The position numbers were made by a program, and so were the translations under genes. Below, piece by piece: positions 32,794-42,810 of a DNA stretch of 64,000 nt. Source of the stretch: Kovacikia minuta CCNUW1 (GTDB lineage: Bacteria; Cyanobacteriota; Cyanobacteriia; Leptolyngbyales; Leptolyngbyaceae). The number at the start of each line of letters is the position of its first letter. Position 1 is the stretch's first letter. The DNA is taken from assembly GCF_020091585.1 (NCBI RefSeq), contig NZ_CP083583.1, forward strand, positions 124,001-188,000, written 5' to 3'. Under the pieces are notes generated by a model, which saw only the letters and a list, made by a program, of their open reading frames with translations, was not told the origin of the DNA and did no database searches.

Positions 32794-34126
32794 ATGACTG
32801 CTACTCTGACCGAAATTCTGTTTATCCTCCTGCTGATTATTGCCAATGGCGTGTTCTCTGGCTCCGAAATTGCGATCGTTTCGGCACGAAAGGTGCGCCT
32901 AGAACAGGCAGCAGAACGAGGTAACCGCAAAGCCAGAAATGCCCTGAAGTTAGCCAACTCTCCAAATGATTTTCTCTCGACTGTCCAAATTGGCATCACG
33001 TTAATTGGCATTCTCAGCGGTGCGGTTGGGGGTGCAACCATTGCCCAACGCTTACAGCCCGTATTGGATAGTGTTCCGGTCTTGCGTCCTTACAGTCAGG
33101 GAATCAGCGTCGGAGTTGTGGTCACCATCATTACCTATCTGTCGTTGGTGGTCGGTGAATTAGTTCCAAAACGGATTGCTTTGAATGATCCAGAGCAAAT
33201 TGCCTGTTCGGTAGCGAAGCCGATGCAGTTGCTCTCCCGGTTAACGGCTCCACTGGTTCACCTGCTGGGCATTTCTACCGATGCATTGCTCGCACTCCTG
33301 GGAATCAGAGCTTCAAACGAGCCAGAGATTACCGAGGAAGAAATTAAGGTGCTGATTCGGCAGGGCGCGGAAGCGGGAATGTTTGAGGAAGCGGAACACG
33401 AAATGGTCGAGCGGGTCTTCCGGTTGGGCGATCGCCCGATCAAATCTCTGATGACTCCCCGCATCGAAATTGTTTGGTTAGATGTGGAATCGTCCCTGGA
33501 AGAGAACCTGCAAAAGGTGGTAGAAAGCACCCATTCCCGCTTTCCAGTGGGTCGTGGCAGGCTGGACGACTGCATTGGCATGATCCGAGGGGGTGCCTTA
33601 CTTTCTGCGCGCCTGTCCGATCACCAACATCAACTTAGAGGCAATTGTTCACCCCCCCCTTTACCTGGCGGAAAGTACCCGTGCTTTGATGGTCTTGGAG
33701 CAGTTCAAACAAACAGGCATCCACATGGCATTGGTGACTGACGAATATGGGGGCGTCGAAGGGTTGGTGACCTTAAATGATTTGATGGAAGCAATCGTTG
33801 GCGACTTGCCGTCCCTGGAGGACCAGGAAGACCCGCTTGTGGTTGAACGCGAAGATGGCTCCTGGCTGATTGATGGTTCTTTGGATGTCCATGAGTTTAA
33901 GGATATCGTTGACACAGCCATCTTGCCCGGAGAAGAAACCGGCAACTTTTACACCTTAGGTGGTTTTGTGCTGAACTTTTTGGGGCAGATTCCTCGATCG
34001 GGTGAGCATTTTGAATGGACAGGGTTACGGTTTGAGGTGATGGACATGGATGGGACGCGGGTTGACAAAGTGCTGGTCTCTCGCCTGTCAAACGCTGATT
34101 CAGAACCAGAGGAGCCGCTTGATTAA
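32794..34126 (+). pseudogene. CNNM/CorC (HlyC-like hemolysin) family membrane protein, frameshifted
   Basis: Membrane protein of the DUF21-CBS-CorC_HlyC layout, linked to Mg2+/divalent-ion homeostasis. The N-terminal DUF21 region (residues ~1-190) has SGSEIAIVSARKVRLEQAAERGN and several hydrophobic helices. The first CBS domain starts with PIKSLMTPRIEIVWLDVESSLEE. After a frameshift the second CBS domain reads GIHMALVTDEYGGVEGLVTLNDLMEAIVGD, then the CorC_HlyC domain DGSWLIDGSLDVHEFKD. The shift lies between 33589 and about 33625; deleting one base (for instance in the GGGGG run at 33589-33593) joins the halves. A one-base insertion; real loss or read error is undecided. A hairpin follows at 34171-34209. 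Confidence 0.85.
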
Positions 34127-34911: not shown

Positions 34912-35917
34912 TCAGGTGCTGACTTTAATGGTATAAGTGCCAGTGCCACCACTTTTGTTGTAGTGTCGGACTTGAGCAAAATACTGCCCCGGACCGAGGT
35001 TCGTCACAATTCTTGAGTTGAATCCCTCCCCTCCATCATCATCTTCAGCAATCAGCAGGGTTTGACTATTCGGTCCAAACAGTTTCATCACCACATCCGT
35101 TTGCCCCCCGGTTTCAATCACGTACCGCCCTGCGGTAGCGACGGTAAATTTATACAGGTCTTCCTCTCCGGGTTGACCGATACTGGCTTGGGTTGGGGTG
35201 TCGTTAACACGCAACTCAACCCCTGGAGCAACCGAGCGGGGATAGGCGGCTGCGCTGGCAATAAACGCCTTATCCATTGCGGACAGAATCTCGTTGGCTT
35301 TGGTACTTTTACCATTCTTAGTCCAGCGTGCCGGGAAGAAGTAAAGCATGATCGAGTCTGGATCAAACTTTGTGCCTCTAATTTGATCTTTGCTGTACTT
35401 CTCAAGCACGTTGTGGTCTGGTTACGTCTGGCGTCCAGTTATTGGGGGGGCCACCCAACTCCCGAATCACAACTTCCTCATTCCATTCAATTCCCCCCTC
35501 AGGATTTTGATGCTCATGTCCTAACCCGATCGCGTGGCCAAATTCATGGGCGGCTGTCCCCCCATCCAAAAAGCCGAGATTCATGGTGGGTTGATCCTTG
35601 GGAATGCTGAGGCAATCGGTGCCAATGTAGGACCATGCGCCATCATTGGGGTCGAAGGCAATGCGGATTTCGGCATCGGGGGCATTGTTGAAATCAAACG
35701 AAAGATTGGCGTGTTCCGCCCACCACTGGGCTTGTTCTTTCGCGATCGCCTGTTGCTCTGGGGTGCCTCCCAGGAACCGCACGCGCAGCTTTGAGCCATT
35801 AATCCACATTTTTCTGAACTCAAAAACCGCCCGCGATCGTCCACCTCCAGAATTTTGAGGGGAAAATAGGTTTCCTGGCAAAACTTTGTCAAAACAAACC
35901 TTAGGAACGTCAGTCAT
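34912..35917 (-). pseudogene. Astacin-like (M12A) zinc metallopeptidase with PPC domain, frameshifted
   Basis: The N-terminal catalytic domain holds GTAAHEFGHAIGLGHEHQNP, the extended HExxHxxGxxH motif of the metzincins with a following Glu as in astacins. A KFDPDSIMLYFFPA segment downstream is the usual Met-turn region (DSIMLY). The C-terminal ~100 residues are a bacterial pre-peptidase C-terminal (PPC) domain (EEDLYKFTVATAGRYVIET ... GTYTIKVST). The ATG at 35917 has GGAGA upstream and is preferred. The halves are in different frames; deleting one base at about 35413-35421 joins TPDVTR to HNVLEKYS. No signal peptide is evident. It faces a conserved unknown gene and the caspase fusion, all within 8 kb. 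Confidence 0.82.
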
Positions 35918-36039
35918 GGCGTTGTCTCCGTGTAGAACTGTTTCCATTACATCGGTCGTCGTCCGAAATATCCTCACTGGATTGTGGGAGCCTTACCGCC
36001 CAATTTGGTAAGAAACGTGAAGGGTAATCAGGAAGCCTT

Positions 36040-37005
36040 TCAATGGGGATTTTCCAAATCTAATAACTTAATTTGAGATTCGGGTACCGCAAATGAAGGG
36101 GTATCCTCTGCTGAATGGGCTGTTTCAGTATCTCGTTCGGAAATGGTTTTGGCTTGATTTAACGGGTCGGAGGCGGCAAGCCCAACTTTCGTTTCGTCAT
36201 ACAGGGCAAACCAGGGCAAGCCATATTCCGTGTAGGTATTTGCAGCGATCGGGGTTGGAGGCGGTTCCTGCCCCGTCAATGCTTGAAACTGAAGGCTATT
36301 CAGAATGTGAATAAAGATCCGCCCATAGTTGTCTTCGTCCCAGGTATCAAGCCCATAGGGGTCGGGGTAAATTTTTTGTTGAATCACACCCCCCGCCCCC
36401 ACCCCCATTGACTGAAACCCAGCGGGCGAGAATAGGCTGCGGGCGCGTCTTAAAACGTTGTCGTCTACGGGTGGCGGTTTGTCGGGGAATTTACCTGGTT
36501 TTGGCTCAAACACCACAATCTGAATCCCTCCCAGGGCTTCTGTCCCTGTCAGCGAAGCTTCTACGGTATAGCCCTGCCCCAGGGGCATTGCCACAAACTG
36601 CCGGATCGAATTTTGGCCGGTATGAATTCCGTCTAGCCAGGGTTGGTTGGGGCAGACGATGTAGTTTTGGGGATCGGCACGAAGCTGGTTATCGTCGGGT
36701 TCTCCTGTAATTGCGTTGATGCCGCCGATCGCAATTTTGACCGCATTCGGTTTCCAGGATGCAGCACTGAAACTGAGCCAGAGGGCTTCCCGTTGATACA
36801 TAGGAATGAACACGCCCCCCTGCTGAAGCCAGTGCTGCGGTACGCGATCGCGATAATCCTCCACCTTACGTAAGGGAAACGAGCCAAGCCCGGGGGGAAG
36901 CGGGTAGGTGTGCCCATCGTCAGGAATCCGCAGGGTGCGCTGAAAGGAGACAGCAAACCGCTGACCAATCTGCATCCGATGCCCGTCAATATCAACATTG
37001 AGCAT
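36040..37005 (-). CDS. Conserved protein of unknown function
   Basis: A 321-residue protein, no signal peptide or membrane helix. Distinctive stretches are SFQRTLRIPDDGHTYPLPPG, GGVFIPMYQREALWLSF, NYIVCPNQPWLDGIHTG and RQFVAMPLGQGYTVEASLTG, followed by GGIQIVVFEPK. This pattern belongs to a conserved bacterial family that I recall without a known function, often beside secreted or self-contained proteases. No catalytic motif was found. The C-terminal ~60 residues are polar and variable. It shares the minus strand with the astacin-like gene (122 bases apart) and is divergent from the amidase-caspase fusion. Confidence 0.7.
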   Translation of the reverse strand: MLNVDIDGHRMQIGQRFAVSFQRTLRIPDDGHTYPLPPGLGSFPLRKVEDYRDRVPQHWLQQGGVFIPMYQREALWLSFSAASWKPNAVKIAIGGINAITGEPDDNQLRADPQNYIVCPNQPWLDGIHTGQNSIRQFVAMPLGQGYTVEASLTGTEALGGIQIVVFEPKPGKFPDKPPPVDDNVLRRARSLFSPAGFQSMGVGAGGVIQQKIYPDPYGLDTWDEDNYGRIFIHILNSLQFQALTGQEPPPTPIAANTYTEYGLPWFALYDETKVGLAASDPLNQAKTISERDTETAHSAEDTPSFAVPESQIKLLDLENPH

Positions 37006-37576: not shown

Positions 37577-40561
37577 ATGCCCCCATTTCACCCCCTTTCC
37601 CTCCAAGAATTTGCCGATCTGCTTGCCCGTTTTCCGTTTCAGCGGCAAATCAATGCGGTTCATCTGCATCACACCTGGCGACCCAACCATGCTCAAGATC
37701 GGGGTTTGAAGTCGATCGAAGGCATGTGGCAATACCATACTCAGGTCAATGGTTGGAGCGATATTGCCCAGCATCTTACCGTTTCCAGTGATGGCACAAT
37801 TTGGACGGGGCGTTCCTGGACTCAGCCACCCGCCAGCGCTGCGGGTCATAATGGCAACCGCGATATCGGTCCCTTCATGATTGAGATGATTGGGGATTTT
37901 GACCAGGGACACGATCGGTTTGAGGGGCAGCAACGGGAGGTGGCGCTAGAGGTGATTGCCCGCATCCAACTTCGCTTTAATCTGCCCGTCGAATCGCTCC
38001 GGTTCCACAATCAAATGTCGCGCAAGTCCTGTCCGGGAACTTCCCTTCAGTATGAGGAGGTGCTGAATGCGGTGCGGGAAGTCCGATCGCGCTTGCAAGC
38101 TACCGATCAGGCACGGGAACTAACAGACCTGCCGTTTCCCGCCGCCGCCCTAGCCTATCGGCAACATACCGATGCGGTCATCCAGGCGATGAGTCGGGAA
38201 TTGCCCAGTAAAGCTGAACCGTGGGATGCGGAACCAGACCTGCGATCGGCAAAAGAGAGTGATCTTGCCATCTTAACGGGGTTAGAGAATCCCACCGAAT
38301 CGGTGTCAGGGGCGCGATCGGCAACCCAACAAAACGGGGCGAGAAATTTGGATCTCTCGCCTGAGGTTCTGAACGAACTCAGACCGCATGTGATCAATCT
38401 GGTGCAGGGAGAATTCCGGGATACGGGTGTGTTTGCCACGTCCAAAGGAGACGTTGATGCCATTTTTGAAGACTATCTTCCCCGTGAACTGGCAGCAGCG
38501 AAAGAGAGGGGACAGAAACTCAAAGTGTTGTTCTATGCCCACGGTGGATTAACGGCTGAGGAGAATGCGCTGCGAACTGCCCATACCCAGCTTGCCTGGT
38601 GGCGCGAAAACCATATCTATCCCATCTATTTTGTTTGGCAAACGGGTTTACTGGAAACGATCGGGCAACTGTTGCAAATGGCAGCCCAACGGTTTCTTTC
38701 GAAGGAACCTGCAATGCGGGACATTGCCCGCGATATTCCAGATTTCACCACCGATCCAGTGATTCAGGAAGTGGTACGAAACCTTGGCTGTGTGCAGATC
38801 TGGTCAGGGATGAAACTCAGCGCAGAACGGGCATTTCAACCCGATCGGGGCGGTTCCTACCTGGTTAAAAAGTTGCAGGAGTTCTGCCAGAACCATCCAG
38901 AGTTGGAATCCATCGAATTGCATGGTGTTGGACACAGTGCCGGGGCAATTTTTCAATCTCACCTGATTGCGGCTGCCCGTCAGGCAGGCATTCCCTCCTT
39001 CAAAACCATGCACTTTCTGGCTCCCGCGATCAGAATTGATGCATTTAAGGAGTTGTTGCTGAAGCCAGGTTTAATCGGTTCGGGGCAGGGCATTGACCAC
39101 CTGACCATTTTTACGATGAAAAAGGATTGGGAGCAGGCAGATCAGTGCGCTGGAGTATACCGAAAGTCATTGCTTTACCTGATTTATCATGCCCTGGAGC
39201 CACAACGAAAAACCGAAATTCTGGGGTTAGAAGAATTTCTCCGCGCCGATGTGGAAATGAAATCGCTGTTTGGTTTAGCCGGAATTCCATCCCCAAAAGG
39301 GGAGGTGATCTGGTCAAAATCGATCTTAAAGACCGGACCAAATGCCAGCACCTGCACAGAACACGGACGATTCCCGGCAGATGCCCCAACCATGAATAGC
39401 GTTTTACTGCGGATTGTTGGTGCAACCGATAATGGAGCGATCATCGAGTTCCCGGCAGCCGCAGCCCGTGATCTGGAAGTTGTGAATTTTGAACAACTGC
39501 CCACTGGTCTGGAGGCTGCGGTATCGGCACCCATGAATGGGGCGATCGCTCCTCCGCCTCTGCCCATTCTTCCTGCCCCTGTTCCACCCATTGCTGCCCC
39601 TGTCATTGCTGCCCCTCCTCAGAATGGGCAGGTTGGAAAACGGCTGGCACTGTGTGTGGGCATTGACACCTATCCTTCTCCCTATGAGCTGCTGGGCTGT
39701 GTTGCCGATGCCACCCTGTGGGCGACGGTACTCGATCGGTTAGGCTTCTCAACCACCCAGTTACACAATCAGCAAGCAACCCGCAGCGCGATTCTGGATG
39801 GTCTGAACACGCTGGTTCGCTCCAGTCAGGCGGGCGATGTGATTGCCTTCCAGTTTTCCGGTCACGGCATCCAACTGCCCGATATGAATGCCGATGAGTC
39901 GGAAGGCGACAGCCCCCATCTGGATGAAGCCATATGCCCCTACGATTTTGCCAGTGGCAGTTTTGTGATTGATGATGATATCGGTGCCATTTTCAGCACC
40001 ATCCCGACTGGGGTGAATGTTACCTGTTTTATTGATTGTTGCCATTCGGGAACTATTTCCCGTTTTGCGGTGGGTGCTTCTCCCCAACGTCAGGCAGATA
40101 CGAGAGTGGAGCGGGTACGGTTTATGAAAGCGACGGAATCCCTGATTGAAGCCCATCGTCGGTTTCGAGAGCGCGTCGGGCGATCGCGATCGGTGAGCAA
40201 TGGCGGCATTGATTTGATGAAGGAAGTGGTCTTTTCTGCCTGTCTTTCCATTGAGCAAGCGTTTGAAAACAACGGCCAGGGGGATTTTACCCGCTACGCC
40301 ACCCAACTCCTGCAACAGGGAATTCAGGGCTTATCCCACGAAGACTTTGAACGCCAGGTGATTGCTGCCTTTGGTGCCGCTCCCCGCCAGCACCCCCGTC
40401 TCTACTGCAACCCCACTGTGCGTAATGGGTTACTGCTACAGCCGATCGCCCTCAGCCCCGCCAGCCGCTCAGTCAGCCCAGGAACTGCCCATGCCGACAG
40501 TGACACCGCCGCGATCGCCCAGGGATTTCGCCTGATTGCAGACCTGTTAGAGAAACGTTGA
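37577..40561 (+). CDS. Amidase-2/PGRP, alpha/beta hydrolase-like and caspase (C14) fusion protein
   Basis: A 994-residue three-part protein. Residues ~1-175: type-2 amidase/PGRP domain, with INAVHLHHTWRP, GHNGNRDIGPFMIEMIG and RFHNQMSRKSCPGT, whose His and Cys residues match zinc ligands. Residues ~270-590: alpha/beta-hydrolase-like region with LKVLFYAHGGLTAEE and IELHGVGHSAGAIFQSHLI (elbow GHSAG). After a Pro/Ala-rich linker, residues ~690-940: caspase-like peptidase with ALCVGIDTYPSPYELLGCVADA, FQFSGHGIQL (His763) and FIDCCHSGTIS (Cys822). All catalytic residues of the caspase part are present. No signal peptide, so it acts in the cytoplasm or is released by lysis. It starts right behind an STRR with no clear Shine-Dalgarno. 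The M4-like peptidase follows on the same strand. Confidence 0.82.
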   Translation: MPPFHPLSLQEFADLLARFPFQRQINAVHLHHTWRPNHAQDRGLKSIEGMWQYHTQVNGWSDIAQHLTVSSDGTIWTGRSWTQPPASAAGHNGNRDIGPFMIEMIGDFDQGHDRFEGQQREVALEVIARIQLRFNLPVESLRFHNQMSRKSCPGTSLQYEEVLNAVREVRSRLQATDQARELTDLPFPAAALAYRQHTDAVIQAMSRELPSKAEPWDAEPDLRSAKESDLAILTGLENPTESVSGARSATQQNGARNLDLSPEVLNELRPHVINLVQGEFRDTGVFATSKGDVDAIFEDYLPRELAAAKERGQKLKVLFYAHGGLTAEENALRTAHTQLAWWRENHIYPIYFVWQTGLLETIGQLLQMAAQRFLSKEPAMRDIARDIPDFTTDPVIQEVVRNLGCVQIWSGMKLSAERAFQPDRGGSYLVKKLQEFCQNHPELESIELHGVGHSAGAIFQSHLIAAARQAGIPSFKTMHFLAPAIRIDAFKELLLKPGLIGSGQGIDHLTIFTMKKDWEQADQCAGVYRKSLLYLIYHALEPQRKTEILGLEEFLRADVEMKSLFGLAGIPSPKGEVIWSKSILKTGPNASTCTEHGRFPADAPTMNSVLLRIVGATDNGAIIEFPAAAARDLEVVNFEQLPTGLEAAVSAPMNGAIAPPPLPILPAPVPPIAAPVIAAPPQNGQVGKRLALCVGIDTYPSPYELLGCVADATLWATVLDRLGFSTTQLHNQQATRSAILDGLNTLVRSSQAGDVIAFQFSGHGIQLPDMNADESEGDSPHLDEAICPYDFASGSFVIDDDIGAIFSTIPTGVNVTCFIDCCHSGTISRFAVGASPQRQADTRVERVRFMKATESLIEAHRRFRERVGRSRSVSNGGIDLMKEVVFSACLSIEQAFENNGQGDFTRYATQLLQQGIQGLSHEDFERQVIAAFGAAPRQHPRLYCNPTVRNGLLLQPIALSPASRSVSPGTAHADSDTAAIAQGFRLIADLLEKR

Positions 40562-40573
40562 TTTGAGAAGCCA

Positions 40574-40751
40574 GGAGTTGGGAGTCAGGAGTTAGGAGCT
40601 AGGAGCTAGGAGCTAGGAACTAGGAGTACAGAAACCGGGTTTCTTCTGTGAGATGCTCAAGTTTCGTTGAATATCCTCACCAGAAACCCGGTTTCTCGGA
40701 GTTGGGAGTCAGGAGTTAGGAGCTAGGAGCTAGGAGCTAGGAACTAGGAGT
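40574..40751. repeat. Duplicated 54-bp STRR flanking a REP-like repeat
   Basis: The same 54 bases (GGAGTTGGGAGTCAGGAGTT..., units of GGAGCTA) occur at 40574-40627 and 40698-40751. Between them is the AGAAACCGGGTTTCT pair also seen at 5928-5994. C-rich STRRs continue to the ATG at 40884. Confidence 0.8.
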
Positions 40752-40883
40752 CAGAATACTAATTAAGGAGTGGGGGAAGAGAATGATGAATGATGAATTA
40801 AAGTCTCCGGTTCTCCGCATCTCCGCGTCTCCGCGTCTTCTTCTACTCCTAACCCCTAACTCCTAATTCCTAGCTCCTGCCCT

Positions 40884-42810
40884 ATGACCGATCCTTCCAC
40901 CAGCATTCCTTCTACGCCAGCAGCCACCGCTGCGATCGCCCAGACGCGGGAAACGGGAAGCGTCCCTCCAGATGACCCGTTGGTAAGCCGCTATCCGGGG
41001 TTAGATTTTCGATTTAAGCTCGGTGCCAGGGTGAAGCAGGCAGTCTATGGGCAGCCCTACGAGCGGTCTCAAGATGATCCGGTTTACCGACCACTCAAAA
41101 TCTTTACCCTCGATCCGTCTGTTTCACGCCTGGAAGGATCGATCGCCCTGGTTAACGTCCCCTATGAACCGTTGGAACCAGGACCCGCAGGCAGAGTTTT
41201 GCGGGTTGAAGACTACGATGAGTCCCAGGACTGTTACTACAGCTCCATCAATCTGGATGATCCAGCCATTCTCATTCGTAACGGGCGCAATCCGTCCCCT
41301 TCCGACTGGCTATTTCACCAACAAATGGTGTATGCCGTTTGCAGTAATGTCTATGCCTGCTTTAGAACAGCACTCGGTCGTAAGTTAGCCTGGGCATTTG
41401 ACCAACCGCAGCTTAAACTTCGCCCCCATGCCTGCTGCGATCGCAATGCCTATTACAACCGGGATGGATGTGAACTATGTTTCGGGTACTATCGAGCAGA
41501 CTCAACGGTGGCAGGCTCCAATCTACCGGGTGGATTTGTGTTTACCTGTTTGTCCCATGACATTGTGGCGCATGAAATCACCCATGCCCTGCTGGACGGA
41601 CTCCGCGCCCACTTCTCCTTCCCCACCGGACCGGATGTGCTGGCGTTCCATGAAGCCTTTGCTGACCTGGTTGCGGTTTTTCAACACTTTAGTTACAGCG
41701 AAGTGTTGCGGACTGCCATTCGCAAATCGCGGGGTGATTTAGTCAATGCGGGATTGTTAACGGAAATTGCCCGCCAGTTTGGTTACACCACCAGCGGTCA
41801 GGAAAAGCCCCTGCGGTGTGCAGTTGATGTGGCAGATAGCGCCCGATCGCCGAAACAGTACGATCCATCCGCAGAAGCCCACGAATTGGGATCTGTCCTG
41901 GTTTCGGCAGTGTTTGAAGCATTTAACACCATGTTCAAACGCAAGACAGAGCGCTATATTCGGTTGGCAACCGGAGGGTCTGGGGTGTTGCCTGTGGGGG
42001 AAATGTCGGTTGATTTGCAAGCCCTATTAGCTGATGAAGCGAGTAAACTGGCCAGTCAATTTCTGGCAATTTGCATTCGGGCGATCGACTACTGCCCCGC
42101 GGTCGATCTGGAATTTGGCGAATTTTTGCGGGCGGTCATCACCGCCGATCGCGACCTTGTACCCGATGATCCGTGGGGATATCGGGAAGCCTGGATTGAT
42201 GGCCTTCCGGCGACGCGCGATTTACCCATCGGGGGTAGACAATCTTTCAGAAGATGCCTTAGTCTGGCATACACCTGATCGCAACCTGCCCGCGATCGAA
42301 GCCCTCAGTTTTGCGGAATTGAAGTTTAAAGGCGACCCCGGATCACCCAGTGGTGCGGAAGAACTGCAACGTCAAGCCTGTGTTTTGGGGCAAGTCATTT
42401 CCCAACCCGACTTTCTGCCTTTGTTTGGGTTAAGTGGTCCCACCGATCCCTGCCTCGCTCAGGATACGGTCGAACTTCCCTGTGTGCAATCAATCCGCTC
42501 ATCCCGCCGGATTGGTCCCGATGGGCAAGTTGTCTTCGATCTAGTTGCGGAAGTGACCCAGCGACGGGTTGTACGAGACGACAACGGCAATGTCCAGTTT
42601 TACTTCTATGGCGGTTCAACCCTCATTTTGGGACCAGATGGAGCCATTCGCTACATCGTTTCCAAAAGCGTCAGAAACAACCAACGGCTACAACGCCAGC
42701 GCGACTTTTTATCCGGCGATCGCAACCACCTGTGGGAATTGGTCAACGGCACCTATATGCCTAAGCAGCAATTATTTCGCCTTCTGCACCACAACGGCGC
42801 AAAAAGCTGA
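40884..42810 (+). pseudogene. Thermolysin-like (M4/gluzincin) metallopeptidase, frameshifted
   Basis: Catalytic region: VAHEITHALLDGL with His230, Glu231 and His234, and the third ligand Glu257 in FHEAFADLVAVFQHF, the M4 spacing. A C-terminal ~190-residue domain (SEDALVWHTPDRNLPAIEAL ... VFDLVAEVTQRRVVRDDNGNVQFYFYGGSTLIL) is not a known M4 propeptide or PPC and is unassigned. No signal peptide or pre-pro region, unlike secreted thermolysins. The frame breaks near 42201: removing one G from GATGGCC turns REAWIDGL into REAWIDAFRRRAIYPSGV, which flows into the downstream frame. It follows the caspase fusion after a repeat-filled 320-base gap and has the CTGCCCTATGA start context also seen at 55822. 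Confidence 0.82.

Follow-up and report, generated by a model that had tools for sequence, protein, structure and literature searches.

A candidate lytic effector that joins a peptidoglycan amidase, a likely alpha/beta-hydrolase and a caspase in one chain in Kovacikia minuta, and its homologue at the end of a contractile injection cluster in Desulfopila

The stretch of Kovacikia minuta DNA analyzed here (64,000 nucleotides; the window) contains an open reading frame of 994 codons at positions 37577 to 40561 of the + strand. The frame runs without a break in the ORF listing, and frame 1 of the minus strand across the same interval is full of stops. It encodes three enzyme-like domains that are separated by two linkers, all given below in + strand positions. 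The GC content of the gene (0.542) and its GC3 (0.551) are like those of the neighboring genes, so composition gives no sign of recent foreign DNA. Neither a signal peptide nor a transmembrane segment stands out in the 994-residue chain, as judged from hydropathy rather than with a dedicated predictor, in keeping with the original prediction of a protein that carries no signal peptide. On the minus strand, the gene is preceded by a frameshifted gene for an astacin-like (M12A) metallopeptidase with a PPC domain, recognized with Pfam (34912 to 35977), and by one for a 321-aa protein that falls into no known family in the ORF listing and Pfam scan (36040 to 37005). On the + strand, it is followed by a rare, frameshift-split gene for an HExxH protein that is zinc-peptidase-like by motif only (40884 to 42810; ORF listing and searches). 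Membership of these three genes in one system with the fusion is putative. Nothing recognizable as an immunity gene or as a loading signal turned up. A CNNM/CorC-like gene (by eye) at 32794 to 34126 of the + strand is also split by a frameshift, and the three frameshifts within 10 kb (CNNM/CorC-like, astacin-like and HExxH genes) represent either assembly errors or decay. Short repeats of the GGAGTTAGGAG/CTAGGAG type lie at 40570 to 40760, between the fusion gene and the HExxH gene, and similar C-rich runs are found just upstream of the starts of both genes.

The N-terminal domain (residues 22 to 154; 37640 to 38038) matches the Amidase_2 profile (PF01510) with 48.9 bits (E 1.1e-12; curated cut-off, 26), and the sequence matches of this end of the protein in the PDB are T7 lysozyme and PGRPs. 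The zinc-ligand motifs of a type-2 amidase that had been read from the sequence are indeed present. His31, His144 and Cys152, together with Lys150, align with T7 lysozyme, and by the residue roles in that enzyme we take the first three to be the zinc ligands and Lys150 to be the catalytic lysine. Gln65 stands at the position of the catalytic Tyr46 of T7 lysozyme. Glu103, which lies within an E-x-x-G-D-F motif and is also kept in the Desulfopila homologue described below, may in our view stand in for Tyr46, as Glu does in AmpD-type amidases. The domain is predicted to cut peptidoglycan.

At the C terminus, residues 688 to 944 (39638 to 40408) match the Peptidase_C14 profile (PF00656) with 67.6 bits (E 1.7e-18; curated cut-off, 21.4), and the PDB sequence matches are GSU0716 (3bij) and metacaspases. 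Alignments with 3bij and with metacaspases confirmed the proposed caspase dyad of His763 and Cys822, the latter within D-C-C-H-S-G. This domain of the caspase family C14 (orthocaspases) scored 19.6 bits with the EACC1-associated caspase model (NF047832), below its cut-off of 140. The two linkers differ in composition: the one between amidase and hydrolase (residues 172 to 262; 38090 to 38362) holds nine Lys/Arg, and the Pro/Ala-rich one between hydrolase and caspase (residues 632 to 687; 39470 to 39637) holds none. In the Desulfopila homologue, the last 34 residues of the second linker are free of Lys/Arg, but the linker as a whole is not. For caspases of prokaryotes, cleavage behind basic residues has been reported (PMC6426788). 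Together with the composition of the linkers, the only hint in the sequence on self-cleavage, this suggests that a self-cut, if there is any, would be expected to release the amidase rather than the caspase.

The middle region (residues ~262 to 615; 38360 to 39421) has no direct Pfam match, and its assignment draws on conservation and on modeling. Ten divergent relatives share as invariant positions the two glycines of the HGG loop (HGGL, residues 322 to 325), His453-Ser454-x-Gly456, Glu519, Asp522 and His596. The GHSAG serine elbow that was first noticed in this protein is a GHSxG motif in which Ser454 is the candidate nucleophile, with Glu519 or Asp522 as the acid and His596 as the histidine. 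Six of the 10 relatives also give weak matches to DUF900, an alpha/beta-hydrolase family. The original prediction had proposed structure prediction of this region as a check, and the outcome was mixed. The top 31 structural matches of the AlphaFold2 (AF2) model in VIA-align were all cutinases (Z 8.0 to 8.7), but the model, built from a two-sequence alignment, was poor (pLDDT 56.7), and Foldseek returned nothing under an E value of 0.001. The top Foldseek rows, to tryptophan synthase, had a TM score of about 0.2 and were judged meaningless. A PDB profile search with the domain gave only weak lipase matches (E 0.19 to 0.61), and a profile comparison of the family with one alpha/beta-hydrolase aligned the elbow alone (probability 17%, versus 0.1% for a sheath control). 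The AF2 model of the whole chain, also from two sequences (pLDDT 41.8), was left out of all fold claims. The invariant Ser454 and His596, with a weak model whose best matches are cutinases, make it likely that the middle domain is an alpha/beta-hydrolase, with a lipid or another ester as its predicted substrate class.

A single full-length homologue was found, a protein of 940 aa with 51% identity from Desulfopila sp. IMCC35006, in which no signal peptide is evident. Because this homologue exists, the fusion is not a chance product. The search for the same architecture that had been suggested has therefore placed it in a second phylum, and three enzyme-like domains in one chain, with their catalytic residues kept, are real. 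A word-pattern scan of limited reach gave one match in 84,980 species genomes. No further full-length copies were found in the sampled cyanobacterial genomes, the sampled Desulfobacterota, plasmids or phages; a viral contig carried a papain-hydrolase relative only. The middle-domain family usually follows a papain-like peptidase domain, as in Rhizobium, Microvirga and Desulfobacterota proteins, and the window architecture therefore looks derived. In a midpoint-rooted tree of this domain, the window and Desulfopila sequences form a pair (100/100) that falls within the papain-linked family, next to forks with values of 86/83 and 91/87. Given this placement, which has moderate tree support, domain exchange is the probable source of the amidase and the caspase. 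The papain-like (C1)-alpha/beta-hydrolase proteins (for example L028:7089-9116, L006 and L058) share the middle domain with the fusion at 27 to 34% identity; in them, a papain-like peptidase replaces the amidase and there is no caspase.

A run of co-oriented + strand genes spanning about 36 kb has the Desulfopila homologue at its end. The run holds a phage-tail-like contractile injection (CIS) cluster, with genes for a contractile sheath, a gp25/sheath initiator, baseplate J and hub; no capsid genes are evident in it. A protein of 2853 aa that gives weak matches to BNR repeats is encoded there as well. The injection genes are followed by genes for a CHAT-CHASE2 protein, a FecR-PASTA protein and a second caspase, which lies about 75 bp upstream of the homologue. 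That the homologue sits with an injection cluster and with proteins resembling envelope sensors (CHASE2 and PASTA) suggests that this machine triggers or delivers it, a reading taken from gene order, in which co-oriented neighbors are no proof of cargo. For the hydrolase or caspase family at large, a link to CIS was rejected: a sheath gene lies no more than 30 kb from a family member on the same contig in only 2 of the 48 genomes checked, many of whose contigs are short. Of 297 Desulfobacterota genomes, only two, G386 and G671 (44% identical, E 3.9e-57), clearly have the Desulfopila-type sheath subtype; in a further two, the sheath matches are weak (E 1.8e-10 and 7.5e-6). The clusters in G386 and G671 both end at their 3' side in a co-oriented caspase gene, about 25 to 28 kb from the sheath. 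Since no sheath was found near caspase or hydrolase relatives in other genomes, the link looks specific to that cluster subtype, for which two cases are few; CIS linkage of the fusion itself comes from one genome, that of Desulfopila. The window copy has no link to such a cluster. Its own genome has three sheath genes, none of them near the fusion gene; on the 1.2-Mb contig that carries the fusion, about 264 kb separate it from the closest one. One contractile injection cluster (L088; C2:418001-438000) shares the contig of the window, and two further sheath genes are on C1.

The three-domain architecture is a new combination of parts that were already known in pairs. Asplund-Samuelsson et al. 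in 2012 (PMC3501461) listed four Amidase_2-metacaspase proteins, from Polaromonas naphthalenivorans, Nitrosococcus oceani, Desulfobacterium autotrophicum and Chitinophaga pinensis, which resemble the fusion in carrying both domains on one polypeptide. The one from Chitinophaga has a lipase as well, and the authors termed it a highly destructive weapon; that lipase is of the GDSL type, whereas the fusion has an alpha/beta-hydrolase. In the other three, a hidden middle domain is possible. For predicted conflict systems, Kaur et al. in 2020 (PMC7159879) described the pairing of a caspase with an alpha/beta-hydrolase as well as effectors that attack the wall. In their MoxR-vWA-VMAP ternary systems, the caspase and the alpha/beta-hydrolase apparently work as a pair too, but as neighboring genes, not in one chain with a wall amidase, and no MoxR, vWA or VMAP was found among the Pfam-scanned window neighbors (34.3 to 45.6 kb). 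Because of these two reports, the novelty argument of the original prediction is weaker than stated, and its view that caspases are not usually joined to a cell-wall hydrolase is partly wrong. The T6SS effector TseP, with amidase and lysozyme activities, likewise puts several envelope-degrading functions into one protein (PMC11893102); it has no caspase and is delivered by the T6SS, whereas delivery of the fusion is putative. An incomplete survey of the open-access literature turned up neither the three-part architecture with a hydrolase of the papain-linked family nor a link of such a fusion to a contractile injection cluster.

The leading class of explanation is still the one first proposed, a device for lysis or cell death, to which the Desulfopila locus adds a link with an injection system that the original prediction had no means of seeing. 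We give about an even chance to a lytic effector of this class that combines three enzymes, resides in the cytoplasm and belongs to a bacterial conflict or cell-death system. Its amidase would cut peptidoglycan, the alpha/beta-hydrolase would attack a lipid or another ester, and the caspase would cut proteins, perhaps including its own chain, most likely in the first linker, so that the amidase is activated or freed. Because the protein has no export signal, it would need injection, a membrane breach or lysis to reach the wall, and in Desulfopila the injection machine would trigger or deliver it. Such a protein may kill the cell that makes it or a target cell. A more specific form of this reading, which we regard as rather unlikely, is a contractile-injection-linked, caspase-armed lysis effector in which one chain breaks wall, lipid and protein, the caspase is a built-in activator, and the gene forms a single injection and cell-death module with those for a CHAT protease and for proteins that sense the wall. 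If the protein works as we infer, bacteria would have a caspase, a wall amidase and a lipase-like hydrolase acting as a single unit of programmed lysis, one subtype of contractile injection cluster would regularly be accompanied by a caspase gene, and the purpose of bacterial caspases could be tested directly with a single protein.

Other readings fit parts of these data. The fusion could be an abortive-infection or programmed self-lysis protein, inactive in the cytoplasm until stress or a phage causes caspase self-processing and death of its own cell, with no injection machine involved in the cyanobacterium. We hold this to be possible but doubtful. It would agree with the lack of an evident signal peptide, with the distance of the window copy from any CIS, with the caspase/alpha-beta-hydrolase pairs of predicted conflict systems (PMC7159879) and with the CHAT, CHASE2 and PASTA neighbors in Desulfopila, which look like a sensing and protease chain. 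However, no NTPase, EAD or recognizable sensor occurs among the Pfam-scanned window neighbors (34.3 to 45.6 kb), and a cytoplasmic amidase cannot reach the wall unless the membrane is breached. Streptomyces is known to have CIS that act in the cytoplasm and bring about cell death (PMC10066040), so that self-lysis and a CIS-linked role may be one and the same.

A digestive or predatory exoenzyme, freed with lysing cells or by another route to degrade other cells for nutrients, seems improbable. The two frameshifted metallopeptidase-like genes that flank the fusion would suit it, as would relatives that combine wall hydrolase, papain and hydrolase modules, but Pfam and hydropathy found no signal peptide or secretion domain in the fusion, and a caspase module is unusual for such enzymes. 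The Amidase_2 family includes recycling enzymes such as AmpD, and the protein might then be a housekeeping enzyme of wall recycling or remodeling that carries a regulatory caspase by chance. The extremely patchy distribution, with no other full-length copy in the sampled cyanobacteria and the single match of the limited-reach scan, makes this very hard to credit. A lytic effector remains our preferred reading.

Relatives of the middle domain join or adjoin other degradative enzymes. A Desulfopila protein (L069:5299-8172) contains PG_binding_1, a weak GH19 match, a papain-like peptidase and the same hydrolase domain, and a gene with a weak DyP-peroxidase match lies nearby. On a Rhizobium gallicum plasmid (L028), genes for a trypsin-NucA protein, a DUF2272-SH3 protein and two papain-hydrolase proteins are clustered with P450/peroxidase-like genes (by eye), and the cluster resembles the NucA-trypsin system of PMC7159879. 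Another pairing of a caspase-like protein with a hydrolase occurs at L072:6680-13213, where a caspase gene is followed by one whose product of 1785 aa matches DUF7379, alpha/beta-hydrolase (LCAT-like), CHAT and TPR-S. The protein encoded at L070:11272-11979, near caspase and papain-hydrolase genes, is 236 aa long and combines acidic repeats with a glycine-rich FLGGLIKKVGGF segment.
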